Assembly (NCBI RefSeq): GCF_016772315.1
Contig: NZ_CP053482.1
Location: 3,591,501 to 3,655,500, forward strand
From: Thiothrix subterranea
GTDB lineage: Bacteria; Pseudomonadota; Gammaproteobacteria; Thiotrichales; Thiotrichaceae
Length of the DNA: 64,000 nt
Direction of reading: 5' to 3'
Below are positions 2,271-32,112 of the stretch, piece by piece. The translations under genes and the position numbers were made by a program. The number at the start of each line of letters is the position of its first letter. The stretch's first letter is position 1. The notes below the pieces were generated by a model. It was not told the origin of the DNA. It did not search any database and saw only the letters and a list, made by a program, of their open reading frames with translations.

Positions 2271-4788
2271 TCGTGTCCAATGGCACTTCGATCAAATTTG
2301 GCACATCCAGCGTGAAGGTGTTGCCATTATTGTCCGCATCGGTAGCGGGTACTTCAAAGGTAACGCTAGGCGTTGGTACGGGTTGTGGTGCAACCGCCGG
2401 GTTATCAAGCTGTACCGGCGGCAATTCGGTGGCGGCACTGCGTACTGGAACGTCGGGGGAAACGCGCACTTCGACGGGGGCATTATTCGCGGCGGCAGCG
2501 GCTGCGGCAGCCGCCGCTTCAGCGGCTTCAGGGTTTTCACGTTCCTGATCGGGCGCAATGACGGGGGCGGCGACAGGCGGCGTTGCGCTAAGGTTATTGG
2601 TCACAGGTGTCGGCGCAACAGGTTCTGGTTTAGCGGGTTTTTCTGGCTTGACCGCAACCGCAGGCGGCGCTTCGGGTTCGGTGCCGGGGGTGAAAATGCC
2701 CATGGCTAAGGTTTCACGGTAACGTTTTTCCAAGGCAATTTGCGCTTCGACGCGCTTATCGAGTTGGTATTTGCCGATGAGTGCTTGGCTGTCATTCAGG
2801 GCGGTGCGGGCTTTTTCGGTATCACGTTTGCGTAAGTGGGTACTGGCGGCTTCTTGTTGGGCATCCACGACTTTTTCCAGCAGTGCCAGCGCTTCGGGGT
2901 GATCCGGGGTTTTTTCCAATAACAAGCTTAAATAGGCAATGGCGCTGTCACTGCGGTCATCGCCCCGACTTAAGTTGCCGTAATCAATGGCTTCGCGGGC
3001 GCGGGCTAAATTGTCGGTGTCAGCGGTGGGCGCGTTGGTGTCTGGCGTGGGTGTGGGTTCTGGAGCGGTGATAGTCGCGGCAGTGGTGGCAGGGATTTCA
3101 GGAGTTTCTGGCTCTGGCTCCGGTGCTAACGCTTGTTTGCGTTGCGCTTGACCGAGAGCAGATTCCAGGCTGACTTGACGTTTTAAGCTGTCAGCCAGGG
3201 TGAATTCGGTAATCAAACGGTCAGCGCTGTGCAGCAGTGTGCTGGCTTCATCGAGTTTGCCGGTGTTTAACAGGGTTTCGGCTTCAGCGTGTTGCTGATT
3301 GATGAGTTGCGCTAACAGGGTTTGCGTTTGGGTATTGTCGGGTTCGAGCGCAATGGCTTGGCGCAAATAGTCCAATGCGGCGGGATTATCGGGGTTGTTG
3401 CTAAGCAGCTTGCCTTGCAGGATGGCATCGGCGGCTTGGGCTTGTAAGTTGCGCAGATTCTTGGATGCGGCGAGTTTGCTTTGATTCGCAGCCTCAGCAG
3501 CGGCTACCTCATTCGCCGCTTCTTCCTTTGTAGCTTCTTCACGGCGGCGTTCGGTTGCTGCCGCTACGCTTTCTTGATCGAGTGCGGGGGGAATAGCTTC
3601 TTCGTTGATTTGATTCGCAGCCTCAGCAGCGGCTACCTCATTCGCCGCTTCTTCCTTTGTAGCTTCTTCACGGCGGCGTTCGGTTGCTGCCGCTACGCTT
3701 TCTTGATCGAGTGCGGGGGGAATAGCTTCTTCGTTGATCAGTGCAGCGCTTTCGGTGGTACTGCGAGGCGCTGTGCCGGTGTCAGGCGGGGTCAGTTCTA
3801 GCTCAGTTGTGCGTGTAGCGGCGGGTTCTTCCGGCGCATTGCTCCAACTGGAAAGTAGCTGGTAAGTGGTGAGCGCCACCGCACCGGCAGCGACCAAGCC
3901 CGCGAGTGGCAACAGCAGCTTTTTTTGTTGCTTGCGTTGCAAGGTATTCAACAGTGCGGTCGGGGTTTTTTGCCGAGCAGTCCGTTTCAGGTTTAACCCT
4001 TGTTGCAGTGCCGCCCAAGTATCGGGGCGTAGTTTGCGGATGCTGCTGGGGGCGGCGTTACGTACCGTGGCTTCGAGGGTGCTGTGTTTACCGAAGGGTG
4101 CGCTGCCTTGCAGGAGGTGGTAAGCCAAGCACGCGATTGAAAACGTGTCATCTTCCGGCGTTGGGGTGTCGCCGAGCAAAACTTCCGGGCTAATGTAACC
4201 CGAACGCAGGGTTTGGCGGGTACGTTCGCTGGAATTATTGTTATAGCTCATCCGCAAGGCGGCAGCGACGGGGGCGGTCAGTAAGCAGGGGGATTTGTCA
4301 TTGAGTAGAATGGCATTCGGTTCTAAATACCCAAACACCCCATCGGGGCGCTGGTTGGCAAATAAATGACTGATGCCATCCAGTAATTCCAGCGCTTCGG
4401 GCAGTGGCATTCCCCGGTCATCGAGTTCGGTTAAACGTTCGGATAACAACATGCCGCCATTATTGCGCATCACCAGCCAGCGCGTGCCATCCGCACTTTT
4501 ACCATCGTCGGTGATATGCGGCATACCGAGGGTGGGTTTTTGATACGCGGGTAACACATGCCCCAAGACTTGTTCAAACACCGGGTCTTGTGCCAAGGCG
4601 GGCAGCAGGGTAAAGGCTAAAACGTTGGCTTGTTCGCCATTGCTTTGCTGTTGTTTGAGGTCTTGTGCCCAATACAGTTTGCCCAGCGCAGTCTCTGCCA
4701 TGCAGCGCCGCAGGGCATAACGCTCCTGAAGGATGGGCAAAGATTGCGTGGTGTTGGCATCCACAGAGGGTTGGTTTGAAAATGGCAT
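2239..4788 (-). CDS. Membrane-anchored pseudokinase-like protein with coiled-coil, TPR-like and Ala/Pro-rich regions
   Basis: I start this at 4788, where GGGAG lies about 10 bases upstream, giving 849 residues. Residues ~20-265 follow a Ser/Thr protein-kinase fold, but the catalytic loop is degenerate (G-Y-L-E-P-N-A-I-L-L in place of H-R-D-x-K-P-x-N-I-L) and no DFG is evident, so it is probably a pseudokinase. The late-lobe features S-G-Y-I-S-P-E-V-L and Y-H-L-L-Q-G-S-A-P-F-G are kept. One transmembrane helix sits near residues 285-306. Beyond it come Glu/Ala-rich repeats (including a perfect 43-residue duplication), TPR-like helices and a long Pro/Ala tail. The tail should be periplasmic. 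A role as a scaffold or envelope stress sensor is inference only; I do not recognise a named family. Confidence 0.65.
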   Translation of the reverse strand: MPFSNQPSVDANTTQSLPILQERYALRRCMAETALGKLYWAQDLKQQQSNGEQANVLAFTLLPALAQDPVFEQVLGHVLPAYQKPTLGMPHITDDGKSADGTRWLVMRNNGGMLLSERLTELDDRGMPLPEALELLDGISHLFANQRPDGVFGYLEPNAILLNDKSPCLLTAPVAAALRMSYNNNSSERTRQTLRSGYISPEVLLGDTPTPEDDTFSIACLAYHLLQGSAPFGKHSTLEATVRNAAPSSIRKLRPDTWAALQQGLNLKRTARQKTPTALLNTLQRKQQKKLLLPLAGLVAAGAVALTTYQLLSSWSNAPEEPAATRTTELELTPPDTGTAPRSTTESAALINEEAIPPALDQESVAAATERRREEATKEEAANEVAAAEAANQINEEAIPPALDQESVAAATERRREEATKEEAANEVAAAEAANQSKLAASKNLRNLQAQAADAILQGKLLSNNPDNPAALDYLRQAIALEPDNTQTQTLLAQLINQQHAEAETLLNTGKLDEASTLLHSADRLITEFTLADSLKRQVSLESALGQAQRKQALAPEPEPETPEIPATTAATITAPEPTPTPDTNAPTADTDNLARAREAIDYGNLSRGDDRSDSAIAYLSLLLEKTPDHPEALALLEKVVDAQQEAASTHLRKRDTEKARTALNDSQALIGKYQLDKRVEAQIALEKRYRETLAMGIFTPGTEPEAPPAVAVKPEKPAKPEPVAPTPVTNNLSATPPVAAPVIAPDQERENPEAAEAAAAAAAAAANNAPVEVRVSPDVPVRSAATELPPVQLDNPAVAPQPVPTPSVTFEVPATDADNNGNTFTLDVPNLIEVPLDTIRDSLPPADR
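3481..3738. repeat. Perfect 129-bp tandem duplication inside the pseudokinase-like gene
   Basis: Two adjacent 129-bp copies (3481-3609 and 3610-3738) appear identical base for base. Each encodes the same 43 residues, beginning I-N-E-E-A-I-P-P-A-L and ending A-A-E-A-A-N-Q. The unit length is a multiple of three, so the frame is kept. Silent differences are absent, which points to a recent duplication and likely copy-number variation between strains. Confidence 0.95.
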
Positions 4789-24323: not shown

Positions 24324-27013
24324 TGATGCGTCGCCTCATCTGGCTAGGTTTGCTGTGTTGTCTGTTGGGAAAGCTGGCAAGCGCCGCGCCGCCTACCTTA
24401 GAACCTGTGACCGTACAATTGAAATGGCAACCGCAGTTCCAATTTGCGGGGTATTACGCTGCGTTGGAATACGGCTTTTTCCATGAGGAAGGGCTGGATG
24501 TCACGTTAGTACCCGGCGGTTCAGACATTGCGCCGCTGATTGAGGTCATGGAAGGGCGAGCAGACTACGCGATTGAGGCGGGGGACTTGGTGTACTACCG
24601 GTTGCAAGGCAAGCCGGTGGTGGCGTTAGCAAGCATTTTCCAGCATTCGCCCGCGATGTTGATGACTGAGGGCAAGGCGGGTTTGCGCACCCCGCACGAT
24701 TTAGCCCATAAACGCATTGGAATGCAGGTCGGCGGGCAGCCGCTGGTGGAAATTGCGGCGATGTTTGTGAACGAAGGCGTGACGTTGGATGCCTTGGCAT
24801 TGCAACCGAATCGACCGGGCATGACGGCGTTGCTGTCGGGGCAGGTGGATGCGGAATACGGTTACATGACCAGTGAGCCGTTCTTCAATCAGCAGGCGGG
24901 GCGAGATATCCACTACATTCAGCCGATCACTTACGGGGTGGATTTTTACGGCGATACTTTGTTTACCAGTGAACGCCACCTAGAGGAACACCCCGCGCAA
25001 GTGGCGGCGTTACGCCGTGCGGTGGTGCGCGGTTGGCAATACGCGCTGGAAAATCCCGATGATATGATCACGGTGTTGCTGAAACGTTACCCGCAGTTGA
25101 ACCGTGAGGCGTTGCAGTTTGAAGCGGCGCGTATCCACGAGTTGGTGAAGCCGGATATTGTCAAAATCGGTCACATGAATTCGGAACGCTGGCGGCGTAT
25201 GGCGGATACCTTCGTCAAGTTGGGGATGGTCAAAGACACTAGTAAGCTGGATGGTTTTTTGTACGACCCCGACCAGAAGCCGGATTACCGCTGGTTGTGG
25301 TGGGTACTCGGCGGATTTGGGGTGGTGGCGCTGTTGGGCTTTGTCGGCAGTGGCATGGTGGCGTGGTTCAATGGGCGTTTGCAGGAGAAAAATACCTTAT
25401 TGCAACACTCGGTTACTGCCCAGCAAGCCAGTGAGCAGTTATTGCAGGAAAGCCAGCGTTCCTTGCAGAGTTTGATCGGCAACTTACCGGGGATGGCTTA
25501 CCGTTGCCACAACGATGCGGATTGGACGATGGAATTTGTCAGCGAAGGCTGCGAAGCCCTGACGGGTTATCCCGCTGAATGGTTGATTGCGTCACAGCGA
25601 TTGACGTGGACGCATTTGATTCACCCTGATGACCGTGCGGGGGTGACAGCGACAGTGGTTAAGGCGAGTTCGGCGCGGCATCCGTTCCAGTTGAGTTACC
25701 GGATACAGCACCGTTCGTGTGAATGGCGTTGGGTGTGGGAGCAAGGGCATTGCGTGGCTTACGATGCAGCGGGCGAGCCGCTGATGTTGGAAGGCTTGAT
25801 CATGGACATTACTTCGCAGGTCGATGTTCAGCAGAAATTACAGCAAGCCAAGGAACAAGCGGATACGGCGACGCGTGCCAAATCCATTTTCCTTGCCAAT
25901 ATCAGTCATGAAATCCGCACGCCGTTGAATGCGGTCACGGGTTTGGCGCAATTGCTGCAACAGGAAAGTTTGCAGGGTAAGCAGCGGGATTACGCGGAAA
26001 AACTGCATAGTTCCTCACGCTTATTGCTGGGGATTGTGGAAGATGTGATGGACTTTTCCTGCATCGAAGCAGGGGAGGTGGTGTTGCGCCCTGTGCCGTT
26101 TAATGTGCGGGGGATTCTGCAAAGTGTCCGGCACATTGTGCAAGATGCCGTGACTGCCAAGGGCTTGGCGTTTCGGTTGGAGGTACAAGACGCTATTCCG
26201 GCGGTGTTGGTGGGCGACCCGTTGCGCCTGAGCCAAGTGCTGAATAATTTGCTGATTAATGCAGTTAAATTTACCAATAAGGGTAGCATTTCTTTGCATG
26301 TGAGCTTGCAAGCGCAGAAGGCAGATAAGGTTCGGTTGCACTTCAGTGTGCGGGATACGGGGATTGGGATTCCGGCGAATCAGCGTGAGAGTTTGTTTGA
26401 GCCATTCGTGCGGATTGATTCCGGTGAGCATGAAGCGGTGAAAGGCGCGGGTTTGGGCTTATCCATCAGCCGCCATTTGGTGGAGTTGATGGGCGGTGCG
26501 ATTAGCGTGGAAAGCATTCCCGGCGTGGGCAGTGAATTCGCTTTCAGTGCAGATTTTGGGTGTGAAGCCGCGTCTACGCTGTTGCCTGATGCGCCAACAC
26601 CTGCCGCTGATACCGCACAGACGTTGCTGACGGGGGCGCGGATTTTGGTGGTGGATGATGATGCGTTGAACCTGATGATCTGCACGGAGTTGTTGCGCAT
26701 TTTCGGTTGTGTTACCGAGCAGGCGGAAAATGCTACGCAAGCGCGGGGGGCATTGATGGCGAATACCTTCGATCTGGTGTTGATGGATATTGAGATGCCG
26801 GGGATGACGGGCGATGCGTTAACCCGTCAATTGCGGACTAATCCGCGTTGGCAAGCGTTGCCGATTATTGCGATGACCGCTCATGCTTCGACGACGATTC
26901 GCGAACATTGCCTCGCCAGTGGGATGAGTGATTATCTGGCGAAACCGTTTGAGGTGGCGCAATTGCGGGCGATGTTGGTGCGGTGGTTGGCGGAGAGAGC
27001 GTCGCATGATTAG
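24323..27013 (+). CDS. Hybrid sensor histidine kinase with an NMT1/THI5-type periplasmic sensor domain
   Basis: 896 residues starting at an ATG overlapping the lpxH stop. A signal peptide (R-R-L-I-W-L-G-L-L-C-C...A-S-A-A) is followed by a periplasmic NMT1/THI5-like substrate-binding domain at about 28-310 (V-T-V-Q-L-K-W-Q-P-Q-F-Q-F-A-G-Y-Y). Then come one transmembrane helix near 322-347, a PAS domain from ~372, HisKA with N-I-S-H-E-I-R-T-P-L near 529, HATPase with N-box near 639, and a receiver domain whose Asp lies in V-L-M-D-I-E-M-P near 818. The binding domain suggests a pyrimidine, thiamine-precursor or nitrate/sulfonate-like ligand. There is no DNA-binding output, so a separate Hpt or response regulator partner is needed. 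Confidence 0.88.
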   Translation: MMRRLIWLGLLCCLLGKLASAAPPTLEPVTVQLKWQPQFQFAGYYAALEYGFFHEEGLDVTLVPGGSDIAPLIEVMEGRADYAIEAGDLVYYRLQGKPVVALASIFQHSPAMLMTEGKAGLRTPHDLAHKRIGMQVGGQPLVEIAAMFVNEGVTLDALALQPNRPGMTALLSGQVDAEYGYMTSEPFFNQQAGRDIHYIQPITYGVDFYGDTLFTSERHLEEHPAQVAALRRAVVRGWQYALENPDDMITVLLKRYPQLNREALQFEAARIHELVKPDIVKIGHMNSERWRRMADTFVKLGMVKDTSKLDGFLYDPDQKPDYRWLWWVLGGFGVVALLGFVGSGMVAWFNGRLQEKNTLLQHSVTAQQASEQLLQESQRSLQSLIGNLPGMAYRCHNDADWTMEFVSEGCEALTGYPAEWLIASQRLTWTHLIHPDDRAGVTATVVKASSARHPFQLSYRIQHRSCEWRWVWEQGHCVAYDAAGEPLMLEGLIMDITSQVDVQQKLQQAKEQADTATRAKSIFLANISHEIRTPLNAVTGLAQLLQQESLQGKQRDYAEKLHSSSRLLLGIVEDVMDFSCIEAGEVVLRPVPFNVRGILQSVRHIVQDAVTAKGLAFRLEVQDAIPAVLVGDPLRLSQVLNNLLINAVKFTNKGSISLHVSLQAQKADKVRLHFSVRDTGIGIPANQRESLFEPFVRIDSGEHEAVKGAGLGLSISRHLVELMGGAISVESIPGVGSEFAFSADFGCEAASTLLPDAPTPAADTAQTLLTGARILVVDDDALNLMICTELLRIFGCVTEQAENATQARGALMANTFDLVLMDIEMPGMTGDALTRQLRTNPRWQALPIIAMTAHASTTIREHCLASGMSDYLAKPFEVAQLRAMLVRWLAERASHD

Positions 27014-27029
27014 CATGTGGATGATGATT

Positions 27030-27257
27030 TCATGATGCTGTATCTCCCATTGCTTTCCGTAACAGTTCAATCCCGCGTTCGGTTTTGCCGCGTCCACGTT
27101 CTGCCCTGGCCTTGAAGCGGGTTTCAGCGTCGAAACTTGCCAGCAGTAGGGTTGTCATTTCGTTCATGAGTTGGTTGACGCTCATGCCGCGTTGCTTTGC
27201 CAACACACTCAGGCGTTGGTGTTTGTCATCGGGTAGGCGTAAGGTGATGGCTGTCAT
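27030..27257 (-). CDS. Ribbon-helix-helix antitoxin, pair 2
   Basis: A 75-residue protein with the same layout as the antitoxin at 16175-16405: strand I-T-L-R-L-P-D-D, helix with R-L-S-V-L-A, turn G-M-S-V-N-Q-L-M, and the shared D-A-E-T-R-F-K-x-R-A block before the C-terminus. Its start codon overlaps the end of the PIN gene by four bases. The two antitoxins are clearly related but differ at many positions, so they probably arose by an old duplication or by separate arrivals, and may not neutralise each other's toxins. Confidence 0.78.
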   Translation of the reverse strand: MTAITLRLPDDKHQRLSVLAKQRGMSVNQLMNEMTTLLLASFDAETRFKARAERGRGKTERGIELLRKAMGDTAS

Positions 27258-27676
27258 GAGAATACCTCCGCAAAAAACTGTTCGGGTGGACGGATATGAA
27301 GCTCAGGGAATTTTAACTCCATCTGTTTGAAATCACGTAGATTATAAGTAATGAGATAGCGAGCATTACCAGCAACAGCCAGTTCAATCAGATGATTATC
27401 GCCTTCATCGCGTAGGTTAGGCCGCCAAGCATAATAAACCGGTGTCCATTGGCAGTGGCTGAGAAAAATATCCAGCAACTCGTCCCGTTCCTGCTGATTC
27501 AGGCGCGACTTGGTGAATAAATCATCCCGACCCAATATATCCTCATATTCAGCCAGCAAAGCAACACCCATCAATGGCGTGAACAGCTCTTGCAAGCAAT
27601 TCATCACCAGCTTGTTTGCTGCCCCTTGACCGATACAAGCACCAAGGAAAATGTTGGTATCCAAGACTATGTTCAT
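27254..27676 (-). CDS. PIN-domain toxin (COG1569-like), pair 2
   Basis: A 140-residue PIN nuclease related to that at 16405-16839. The acidic residues are in V-L-D-T-N-I-F at 4-10, E-Y-E-D-I near 43-47 and R-D-E-G-D-N-H-L near 88-95. The block Y-Y-A-W-R-P-N-L-R-D-E is nearly identical between the two toxins. The gene comes first in its operon, with the antitoxin second. Predicted function: Mg2+-dependent RNA cleavage released on antitoxin decay. It flanks the AT-rich broken ATPase gene, so this is an accessory region. Confidence 0.8.
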   Translation of the reverse strand: MNIVLDTNIFLGACIGQGAANKLVMNCLQELFTPLMGVALLAEYEDILGRDDLFTKSRLNQQERDELLDIFLSHCQWTPVYYAWRPNLRDEGDNHLIELAVAGNARYLITYNLRDFKQMELKFPELHIRPPEQFFAEVFS

Positions 27677-29245
27677 TTCAGAATGGTATCACTCTTGCCA
27701 CCACTACTGCTAGTAGTTAAATTTTTATAAAGTGGTGAAAATTTGTTACTTATCGACTATGATTGAGTGAGCTTAATTCACTTCCAGCAGTAATACCCAA
27801 TCATTTAATATGTTGCCGTGACTTAGATGAAAAAAATAGACTTTCAAGTAGATGCAAGGCTTGCCAAACTTCTGGCTAGTTATCGTTCTTCTGAACTAGC
27901 TCTGAAAGAGTTGGTCGATAATGCTTGGGATGCTGACGCGGAAACTATAAAAATTGACATTCCTACTCCTATGAGTGGTGAACCCCTCATCATAGAAGAT
28001 GATGGAACGGGAATGACAGAAGCCGAACTGCGAAATGAATACTTCCTGATTGCAAGTGATCGCCGCCAAAGACGAGGTGAGCTTACTAAAGGGAAAAATC
28101 GAAAAGTGAAGGGTAAAAAAGGAATAGGTAAATTTGCAGGTTTGATGGTCGCAAGCTCTATGTCTTTTGAAACTTGGGCGCGTGGTAAAAAGTGTCAATT
28201 TGTTATTACGAAAAATGATTATGACTCGGCAACGGATATAGAGAAACTTTCAATACCATTTACTTCAATTGATTATGCGAAAGAAAAACAGGGAGTTCGC
28301 ATAATATTGCGTGACCTTAATCAGTCTTTAGCTTATCCAGTTGCAGATAAACTCAGGCAGCTACTTTTGCGAGAGTATGGACGTGAAAATGGATTTTCTA
28401 TTATTATAGACAATAAAGAGTTGGGTGTGGATGATCTTCAAGGTGATTTCTCAGATCATTCTAAAAAATTAGAAAAAATAGGAAATGTTTCTTTGAGGTT
28501 TTCTATATCAGATCAAAAGTCGAATCTTAGGCAGCCAGGTCTTTCAATCAGAGTTGATGGTAAGATTATCGGGAAGCCAAGCTTCTTTGATTTAGATAAA
28601 CTAGATTACTTCCCTCAAAAATTGCTTAAAAAGCTATATGGAGAAGTAGAAGCTGATGGGCTGGTTGATCATGTTACAGCAGACTGGGGAGCTTTGATTG
28701 AAAATAGTCATCTTTATTTGGAATTAAAAAATTATATAGAACCAATATTGATAGAAAGATTTAATGAAGTATATGGTCGTGAAATTAACCTTGCACAAGC
28801 AAGATTAAAACGATCAGTTGATGCTAGATTATCAAAACTTCCTGAGTATAAAAGAGAGTTTGCTGATAAAGCTTTTAAGAAGGTTGCAGAAAAGTATTAC
28901 GGAGAATCAGAATCAAGGGTTACACCTATTGTTAATGTTATTTTGGATGCATTAGAGCGTACTGATTACAGAACCATTATTGAATATATACATGATACTA
29001 AGCACTCCGATGTTGCTAAGATAGCTGAAGTTCTTTCAGAGTTTGGTTTGCTTGAATTGGCTATGATTGGCGAACAAGGTAAAGCACGGCTTGAATTTTT
29101 AGATAAGTTAGAAGAATTATGTGATAAGGATGAAACAGATGAGCAGATAATTCATGAGGCATTGGAAAATAATCTTTGGATGTTTGATGTTAAGTATACT
29201 TTATTCAGCAGTAATAAAACACTTAAAAAACAAATTGAAAATTAT

Positions 29246-30516
29246 CTCTGTACACGACAATTCTCCTAACCCATTGAATTTTTATTAAACGAAAACGGCT
29301 TGAATCTCATACGTCCATCCTCTATCACCATGAATTGAGGTGGACAAAGGAACAGGATCACGAGCCTGAGATTATCCAAGGCTTCACGTCCACTTCGGGT
29401 TAACAGATCAGTCAGGTAATCCAAGCCGTAGCGGAAGACGCTCTGCTCTTTACGCCCATGCTTTTTAACCTTCAACGGTTTGACGGCTTTTTCCTTCCAC
29501 TCCCCGACTTTATGCGCCCAACAGAAGCCAATGGCGAGCAATGCCATCATCTTTTTGATGCGTGGGGGCTTGGTGAAGTGAGTGGCTTCCATGTGGAAAC
29601 CGCGCCCTTTCAGGCATTGGAACAGATTTTCGATTTCCCAACGCAGTCGATAGGTGTCAATCGGGTCAGGGGTGTAGTGGTTGTTGGCGACAATCAGCAG
29701 TTCACCGCTTGCTAGCTTCGAGCCGCTCAACCAAACCCATTCCCCGCTGACTTCCCGACGGTGACGCAGAACACGCTGTTTACCCAGTTTCAAATTAGCA
29801 AACAGCGAACGAACGTGCATTTCTTGACCGTGTTTATCGGTCATCAACTGGTTTTCCTTGATGCGAATCAGGTAGGGAATTTCTTTGGAAGACAACCACT
29901 TCCACCATTCTCCACCAATAAATTCACGATCAGCCAGCACCCCAAGAATGTGGTTGCGCCCAAATTGGCTGATAAAACGTTGTAACAGCGCAATGCGTTC
30001 CCGTTGGTTAGAATTGCCGCGTTTGTTCAACACCATCCAGTAAACGGGTATCGCTGCCCCTTGATAAACAATCGCCAGTGTCAGAATGTTGAGATTGGAT
30101 TTTCCCCATTGCCAGTTCGTTCGATCCAGCGTGAGGTAGTAGTCCTGCCCGCTGAAGGCGAACAGGTTCATGATGAGGTGCGCTATATCATTGTAGTCAA
30201 AGAGCACTTGGCTAAAAAAGCGTTGCATCCGTCGATAGCGGGAAGCGATTTCCGTATCGCTGTCTATATGCACTGCCAACAAGGTCAAATTCATTTGACG
30301 CGCATTCAGCAGCGCCAGCAGCATTGACACAAAACAATCCAGACGGGGCTTGCCCCAACCTAAGTAGGCTTTTAAACTGTCTCTCAGTCCATCGTTCAGA
30401 TCCATTTCGCTCTCCTGTGTGGTAACTAGAGAGTAAAACATTGGGGCGATGGACTTCCATCTCTTATGTGGTGTGATACCTAAATCAATGGGTTAGAAGT
30501 TTTGTCGTGTACAGAG
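29246..30516 (-). mobile_element. IS4-family insertion sequence
   Basis: About 1271 bp with terminal inverted repeats CTCTGTACACGACAA at both ends (29246-29260 and, reversed, 30502-30516). The match extends to about 29 of 32 bases including C-T-A-A-C-C-C-A-T-T-G-A. It carries one transposase gene. The flanking bases (ttgaaaattat and gtcaaaatca) are not a duplication, which suggests a deletion next to the element or recombination between copies. The element interrupts the GHKL ATPase gene. Confidence 0.88.
29266..30405 (-). CDS. IS4-family DDE transposase
   Basis: I start at 30405 where GGAGA precedes the ATG by six to seven bases; the product has 379 residues. The DDE triad is visible: Asp in L-T-L-D-R-T-N-W, Asp in V-L-A-D-R-E-F, and Glu in the IS4 signature Y-R-L-R-W-E-I-E-N-L-F-Q-C-L-K, which fits Y-(2)-R-(3)-E-(6)-K exactly. 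The frame is intact, so the element may still be mobile. Confidence 0.92.
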   Translation of the reverse strand: MDLNDGLRDSLKAYLGWGKPRLDCFVSMLLALLNARQMNLTLLAVHIDSDTEIASRYRRMQRFFSQVLFDYNDIAHLIMNLFAFSGQDYYLTLDRTNWQWGKSNLNILTLAIVYQGAAIPVYWMVLNKRGNSNQRERIALLQRFISQFGRNHILGVLADREFIGGEWWKWLSSKEIPYLIRIKENQLMTDKHGQEMHVRSLFANLKLGKQRVLRHRREVSGEWVWLSGSKLASGELLIVANNHYTPDPIDTYRLRWEIENLFQCLKGRGFHMEATHFTKPPRIKKMMALLAIGFCWAHKVGEWKEKAVKPLKVKKHGRKEQSVFRYGLDYLTDLLTRSGREALDNLRLVILFLCPPQFMVIEDGRMRFKPFSFNKNSMG

Positions 30517-30632
30517 GTCAAAATCATGAGCCAAATGTAGAAATTTTCATATTCTCAGAACTCATCTCAAATGCAAGGCATCAGCTTAACTGGTTGTTAA
30601 AAGAGTTAGGTGGAAAAATCCATGCTTGAATA

Positions 30633-30800
30633 TCAATTTCCCACCAACCTGCGTTACAATTTTCTGATCTTCGTCTCAAATACCCAAACCAATTTCTTCT
30701 TTGCATCTATCAACCGCTTTTCCTACTGAATCTCACTCTGAGCATCAAGATCAGGCAGATGACTGAAGTGATTTAACTTGATTGAGGAGACTCTGATTGA
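30633..30800 (-). pseudogene. Possible C-terminal fragment of a type I restriction-modification subunit
   Basis: The 300-bp gap between the IS/ATPase remnant and phoR holds no intact gene. In one minus-strand frame it reads L-D-A-Q-S-E-I-Q, stop, E-K-R-L-I-D-A-K-K-K-L-V, then V-F-E-T-K-I-R-K-L, stop. This resembles the coiled C-terminus of HsdM/HsdS-type proteins (E-I-E-A-E-Q-x-L-V-x-A-N-x-x-L-I). With three stops in about 170 bp it would be a decayed fragment. This is a weak, pattern-based call. Confidence 0.3.
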
Positions 30801-30813
30801 GTCGATTGTACGC

Positions 30814-32112
30814 TTAATCCAACACCCGCTTCGCCGGAAAACACGCCTTGAACTCGGTATGCCCCGGCTTGCTGTCAATCGTCAGCTTGCCGTTATGCCA
30901 TTGCATCACATGCTTCACAATCGCTAACCCCAAACCCGTGCCACCGCTGGCACGCGACCGCCCTTCATCCACGCGGTAAAAGCGTTCGGTCAAATGCGGC
31001 AAGTGCTTTTCAGGAATGCCGGGGCCGTTGTCGATAATGCTCAAACAGGCTTGCCCATCGTCAGTGCTTTCCCAGTGAATGCGGATGGTTGTACCAACGG
31101 GGGTATGTTTCACCGCATTCGCCAGCAAGTTGGTAATGACGCTGTTAATGTCTTTTTCCGAGCCGCACACGCACAAATCGGGTTCGATTTGGGTTTCCAA
31201 CAGGTGCGTATCGCTGGCTAGGGTGTCGCTGATGGCTTTAATACTGCTTTCCAACATCGCAGGCACATCGACACGATTGCCCATCAGCGGCGTGGTTTCC
31301 TGACTTTCCAGCCGTGACAACGCCAGCATATCGCTGATGATTTGCTGCATTCGGGCGGCTTGCTCTTGCGACTGTTGCAACGGTGCTTTGAGGTACTCTG
31401 GTAATTCCGGGTCTTGTTCAAACAGCTCAATGTAGCCGGTCAACACGGTTAACGGCGTGCGCAATTCGTGGGAAGCGTTGGCAATGAAGGCTTTACGGGT
31501 TTTCTGCAATTGCACGCCTTCGCTAATGTCGCGCACGCTCAACACCCGCGAGCCGCCTTGCAAGGGTAAGAGGCGAGCGCGTAAGGTTAAATTGCTATGG
31601 CGTGGCGACGGAAACGTGACTCGGCGTTCACTGTTTTCTTCCAGCAATTTGTGCAAATCGGGGTTGCGCAACAAGGTATCGACCCGTTTGCCGCGATCAA
31701 CCGCATCGCGAATATTCAGCAACTTAGCCGCTGATTTGTTTGCCCACTGAATGTGATTGTCGGCATCCAACAACACCGCCGCATCGGGCAAAGCGGACAG
31801 GACATTATCAAAGCGCGTCAGTAATTCCTGCTGTTTGCGTTTGCGTTCCAGACTTTTTTGTTGGGATTTCTGGAAAAGGTAAGCAATTTGTTCCCATGCG
31901 CCGTCGCTGTCGGGCATTTCTTCAGGCTTTTGCCCATTGGTGAGCCAGCGTTGCAATTGGTAGAGCTTGTGCAACATCCAGCCAATATAGCCGAGCAAGA
32001 CAAGCACCATAATGGGGAAAGGGTAGGGTGTGAACCATGCAAGCGAAAAACCGCCGCCTACTACGAGAGCCAGCCGGTAGCGTTCCACACTCCAATAGTT
32101 GTTCGGCATCAA
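30814..32112 (-). CDS. phoR: Phosphate regulon sensor kinase PhoR
   Basis: A 432-residue histidine kinase. The N-terminal membrane region (two helices within ~8-45) is followed by a charged linker, a PAS domain at about 105-190 (L-D-A-D-N-H-I-Q-W-A-N), then HisKA with N-A-S-H-E-L-R-T-P-L-T near 213 and HATPase with N-L-L-A-N-A-V-K-H-T-P. PhoR phosphorylates PhoB when Pi is low and dephosphorylates it when the PstSCAB-PhoU complex signals plenty. Its ATG overlaps the phoB stop (ATGA). It is the last gene of pstC-pstA-pstB-phoU-phoB-phoR. Confidence 0.95.
   Translation of the reverse strand: MMPNNYWSVERYRLALVVGGGFSLAWFTPYPFPIMVLVLLGYIGWMLHKLYQLQRWLTNGQKPEEMPDSDGAWEQIAYLFQKSQQKSLERKRKQQELLTRFDNVLSALPDAAVLLDADNHIQWANKSAAKLLNIRDAVDRGKRVDTLLRNPDLHKLLEENSERRVTFPSPRHSNLTLRARLLPLQGGSRVLSVRDISEGVQLQKTRKAFIANASHELRTPLTVLTGYIELFEQDPELPEYLKAPLQQSQEQAARMQQIISDMLALSRLESQETTPLMGNRVDVPAMLESSIKAISDTLASDTHLLETQIEPDLCVCGSEKDINSVITNLLANAVKHTPVGTTIRIHWESTDDGQACLSIIDNGPGIPEKHLPHLTERFYRVDEGRSRASGGTGLGLAIVKHVMQWHNGKLTIDSKPGHTEFKACFPAKRVLD

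Follow-up and report, generated by a model that had tools for sequence, protein, structure and literature searches.

A stretch of the Thiothrix subterranea genome that the initial annotation had called AT-rich (35% GC versus about 53% around it) holds a GHKL-ATPase gene that runs into an insertion sequence (IS). What was this gene, does it resume beyond the IS, and what did it lose? The window that we analyzed is a 64,000-nucleotide stretch of contig NZ_CP053482.1, and all coordinates below refer to it. We consider it very probable (roughly 93%) that the locus is an acquired one-gene, ATP-dependent Shedu nuclease, sited by phoR and destroyed by an IS4-family element together with the deletion of a 77-codon catalytic core.

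Results

Two pieces of one gene flank an IS4-family element

The open reading frame at 27827-29269 encodes 480 aa, the final 7 codons of which are IS sequence. The 5′ part of the gene itself (27827-29245, forward strand) thus comprises 473 codons and reads through without any other stop or frameshift. Its domain order is a GHKL ATPase, an S5-like domain, a helical linker and the start of the Shedu nuclease domain. The HATPase_c_3 model matched it with 94.1 bits (cutoff 25), and a W-M-F-x-x-x-Y motif lies at residues 451-457, with W451 and Y457 conserved across the family; both features had been proposed to precede the IS. Using a family HMM built from 83 complete homologues of 575-600 aa, drawn from genomes, viral contigs and plasmids, we obtained a match over positions 2-475 with 724 bits. 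The 5′ part is 45-62% identical to intact homologues of about 587 aa.

The IS (29246-30516, 1271 bp) carries 35-bp inverted repeats (89%) at 29246-29280 and 30482-30516, the left of which starts exactly at a codon boundary of the broken gene. It encodes a 391-aa DDE transposase on the reverse strand (29266-30441; DDE_Tnp_1), which scored 248.7 bits against NCBIfam NF033591 (cutoff 152). The repeats and the transposase match bear out the earlier statement that an IS4-family element splits the gene.

Beyond the IS, the forward-strand segment 30519-30629 translates to QNHEPNVEIFIFSELISNARHQLNWLLKELGGKIHA followed by a stop. The initial annotation was right that the gene resumes here; this tail supplies the final 36 nuclease-domain codons and the stop codon. 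Aligned with the ends of intact homologues (residues 554-588 of L055, for example), the tail gave a raw score of 139, whereas the best of 500 shuffles reached 42. Against the family HMM, it matched positions 552-581 with 26.0 bits, versus 2.9 for the best of 2000 shuffled tails, and it shares its end (..LNWLLKELGG..HA) and the place of its stop with the nearest homologues. A whole-genome search by means of the aligned-family profile gave the two pieces in order, at profile positions 2-478 and 551-582, flanking the IS; one further weak match covered the ATPase motif only. The 5′ part and the tail are pieces of one gene, and the tail does not belong to another. Searching the organism's own genome with PF14082 gave no match anywhere, controls included, and so carries no weight as evidence.

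Intact homologues combine a GHKL ATPase with a Shedu-type nuclease

In plasmid records, tblastn revealed intact homologues (about 586 aa) from rhizobia, Azospirillum and Caballeronia. Scanning one genome per species, we obtained 190 relatives; the best 80 of these bear organism labels from at least 12 phyla. Almost every complete homologue has 575-600 aa and RPDL...IEFK, with [IVL]EFK at about residue 501-508. Intact proteins do not end near residue 475, an outcome that would have refuted the initial annotation. A few relatives look broken themselves: the Rhizobium gallicum copy (L013, 5983-7491) has 502 aa and loses its frame ahead of IEFK, the Nitrosomonas copy (L122) falls into two tblastn pieces, and the Acetobacter copy (L126) has 458 aa. 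Close relatives also occur on contigs classed as viral in IMG/VR (L134-L138), one of which (L134) equals the Endozoicomonas copy L056 in sequence over the aligned part; some copies may travel on prophages.

Intact homologues match HATPase_c_3 with 91-101 bits. In a structural model of one of them (mean pLDDT 79.8), residues 9-320 had MORC2 as the top match (Z 17.3, 277 residues aligned, rmsd 11.2). MORC2/3/4 and Hsp90/TRAP1 share the GHKL-S5 fold with these residues; unlike the intact homologues, they have no nuclease domain. Since a search with the full-length model retrieved matches to the ATPase half only, the nuclease domain was modelled alone (pLDDT 86). Its top four solved matches were all Shedu proteins (8ti9, 8ps4, 8ps5 and 8ti8, with Z of 12.3, 11.6, 11.4 and 11.0), the best extending over 141 residues at 3.1 Å, and the next match outside these four had a Z of 9.9. 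Foldseek returned nothing at E ≤ 0.001 for this model, and the Shedu assignment is based on VIA-align and on profiles. Among the latter, Pfam SduA_C matched homologue P0003 with 27.9 bits (cutoff 27) and stayed under cutoff for P0002 and P0005, while the C-terminal domain profile matched the solved SduA 8ti8 at E 8e-4. Taken together, the Pfam model, the profile and the predicted fold support a Shedu-type C-terminal domain, as the initial annotation had suggested. The B. cereus and E. coli SduA structures (8ti8, 8ti9, 8ps4, 8ps5) resemble the modelled domain in fold (Z 11.0-12.3, 13-20% identity) and in its C-terminal position; they differ in their N-terminal domains, where the family studied here has the GHKL ATPase.

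GHKL ATPases also occur in type II restriction enzymes of the BbrUII/HgiDII kind, and the gene could be read as one of these with no relation to Shedu. NCBIfam NF050001, which represents those enzymes, does match the ATPase half with 155-165 bits, and the PADLOC REase_II models match residues 19-127. Yet 155-165 bits is far under the family cutoff of 550, and the best stretch, about residues 19-206, is centred on the related ATPase domain. The nuclease half is assigned to Shedu by profile and fold, and no methyltransferase is seen beside the window gene. We regard a type II restriction enzyme as highly improbable.

The architecture of the family is already known

The intact homologues have the architecture of Shedu type I-D, also described as paraMORC3. 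Iyer, Abhiman and Aravind defined paraMORC3 in 2008 as a GHKL and S5 protein with a C-terminal restriction-endonuclease-fold domain bearing E-D-ExK, prevalent in proteobacteria and bacteroidetes and standalone in some cases (PMC2292703). The D-ExK part of this signature is absent from the window copy. VcSduA of the Vibrio cholerae WASA lineage, a Shedu type I-D protein, was shown in 2025 to have anti-phage activity, and VcSduA-like proteins had previously been annotated as paraMORC3 (PMC12137116). In view of both reports, calling the ATPase-nuclease fusion little described is outdated.

VcSduA and the intact homologues alike are encoded by a single gene, with an N-terminal GHKL ATPase, a clamp-like middle domain and a C-terminal DUF4263/Shedu nuclease. 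Defence by VcSduA depends on E27 of the ATPase and K557 of the nuclease, and mutants of either active site lost it (PMC12137116). These residues are 530 positions apart, whereas the corresponding pair in homologue L054, E29 and K507, is 478 apart, i.e. 52 shorter. By this spacing, taken for VcSduA from its published residue positions, the homologues probably form a subfamily different from VcSduA.

The window copy has lost its catalytic core

Comparing the two gene pieces with nine homologues, we find that 76-78 codons (about 77) are missing between them. The earlier claim of a codon loss thus holds, while its figure of about 100 was somewhat high. RPDL and IEFK both fall inside the gap. In L054 numbering, R488, P489, D490, E505, F506 and K507 are invariant or at least 90% conserved in 64 aligned family rows, and R, P, D, E and K are invariant in the nuclease-domain alignment. 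Because the gap contains these invariant or nearly invariant motifs, the catalytic core is gone, as had been supposed from the letters of the locus. A whole-genome search with the aligned family did not find the lost nuclease core elsewhere. Judged from its sequence, the window copy would be unable to cut DNA. Unlike VcSduA, which is intact and active, it is a pseudogene with a dead nuclease, the remnant and no working member of a defence family already known.

How well is the rest preserved? The window copy retains 55 of the 56 columns that are invariant in all other aligned members. Of 124 conserved positions, it is changed at 8, including G454D and T157V, where intact members have a median of 2 such changes. 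The lack of any other stop or frameshift, together with this mildly raised number of changes at conserved sites, suggests that the break is recent. No close intact relative was found, the best being 62% identical.

The open frame of 473 codons and the retained invariant columns could also mean that the remnant is still in use, its 480-aa product (ATPase, S5 and helical domains) acting nuclease-free, for example as a DNA-binding ATPase or regulator. However, a recent break would equally leave the frame intact, the excess of changes at conserved positions points the other way, and in VcSduA the loss of either active site abolished defence (PMC12137116). A surviving function of this kind is improbable.

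The IS insertion is probably associated with a deletion

The IS is present as a single copy in the genome. Comparing its flanks (...GAAAATTAT / GTCAAAATC), we found no target duplication in common, in agreement with the earlier reading of the site. In G015, another member of the genus, two related IS copies (L048 and L052) are flanked by 9-bp target duplications, while one of the three full-length copies there (L042) has none. A target-site duplication is not strictly defining for IS4 membership and can be lost. The missing duplication is consistent with an adjacent deletion. From the absent duplication and the gene sequence missing at the IS edge, we infer an IS-associated deletion.

Two other histories would lead to the same end: an unrelated deletion may have removed the core first, with the IS inserting later at the scar, or two flanking IS copies may have recombined. 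The present single-copy state would have erased such a history, and L042 shows that duplications do get lost. An insertion precisely at the scar, however, requires a coincidence and ought to leave a 9-bp duplication, which is not present, and recombination between two copies requires one additional insertion. We therefore hold these histories to be possible but unlikely, and favor the IS-associated deletion.

The gene was probably gained at a variable site next to phoR

The broken gene has a hybrid histidine-kinase gene on one side and phoR on the other, and the gap between these two (27005-30810) is a variable site in the genus. Beside it is a ribbon-helix-helix (RHH) and PIN_3 toxin-antitoxin-like pair (27030-27676, reverse strand), and behind it the non-coding remainder of the inserted cassette (30630-30810) runs up to the end of phoR, unmatched in sister genomes. 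Homology to the sister genomes resumes at 30811-30814. In G009 and G010, the site is nearly empty, and in G003 it holds the PIN/RHH pair alone, without the defence gene, while the window has both. Most simply, about 3.1 kb (roughly 27706-30810) was gained as a cassette by this lineage.

We found no copy of the gene in any of the 15 sister genomes searched within the genus. Searches of genus and family relatives gave ATPase-domain matches only and no full-length one, and phage genome records gave no match to the gene. Elsewhere in the window, at 3476-3738, a 129-bp unit is tandemly duplicated with 99% identity, which suggests a recent duplication.

In one clade, intact genes follow type III restriction genes

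Examining 72 homologue loci, we found no general conserved partner gene, in agreement with the description of standalone paraMORC3 by Iyer et al. In about 10 of the 72, all in one clade, the gene comes shortly after a type III methyltransferase (mod) gene and a restriction-subunit-like (res) gene and shares their strand. The elements that carry these loci also have DUF4400 and TraG/TraD genes, and because the loci cluster in the family tree, which was built with a quick method, they may represent a single element lineage. For this one clade, the placement of the intact gene on mobile elements, behind type III restriction genes, is mildly new. Some intact homologues adjoin restriction-modification genes, in contrast to the standalone subset of paraMORC3. 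The loci (L061, 3455-12700, and L060, L063, L066-L068, L071, L072, L081 and L116) possibly form a three-gene defence operon.

A PADLOC/Pfam tally of 100 neighbouring ORFs, a plain count with no measure of enrichment, included genes of type III and other restriction-modification systems, GajB, GmrSD and MmeI. A divergent helicase adjoins the gene in Sinorhizobium meliloti (L010, 3012-5537) and Agrobacterium pusense (L011, 3031-5559), and the phage-defence-candidate family PDC-S28 matches the L010 copy along its full length.

A broader reading takes the intact ~587-aa subfamily as a branch of Shedu I-D apart from VcSduA which, in one clade carried by integrative elements, serves as a third component of a type III restriction system. 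We put this forward tentatively, as an unlikely though not negligible reading; if true, the GHKL-Shedu protein would serve as a backup to type III restriction or take its guidance from it.

Discussion

The observations are best accommodated by the following history. A single-gene anti-phage system would have arrived horizontally at the site flanked by the hybrid histidine-kinase gene and phoR. An IS4-family element would then have moved into it, and the adjacent 77 codons, which held the D...ExK catalytic core, would have been deleted.

The likely mode of action of the intact relatives can be sketched by analogy with VcSduA and with Shedu in general. In EcSduA, an N-terminal clamp binds DNA ends, and Shedu in general combines the sensing of DNA ends with a release of the nuclease from autoinhibition (PMC12904381). 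In the intact relatives, the GHKL ATPase most likely dimerises as an ATP-driven clamp; the clamp would sense a feature of invading DNA and then free the Shedu nuclease to cut. Among GHKL-Shedu proteins, phage protection has been shown only for VcSduA (PMC12137116), and by this analogy the intact members of the ~587-aa subfamily probably defend against phage as well.

The locus offers an example of a defence gene that one lineage took up as a one-gene cassette and then lost through IS inactivation, and its relatives add further evidence for the wide spread of GHKL-Shedu fusions. The broken copy by itself alters little; the family around it is the part that deserves experiment.
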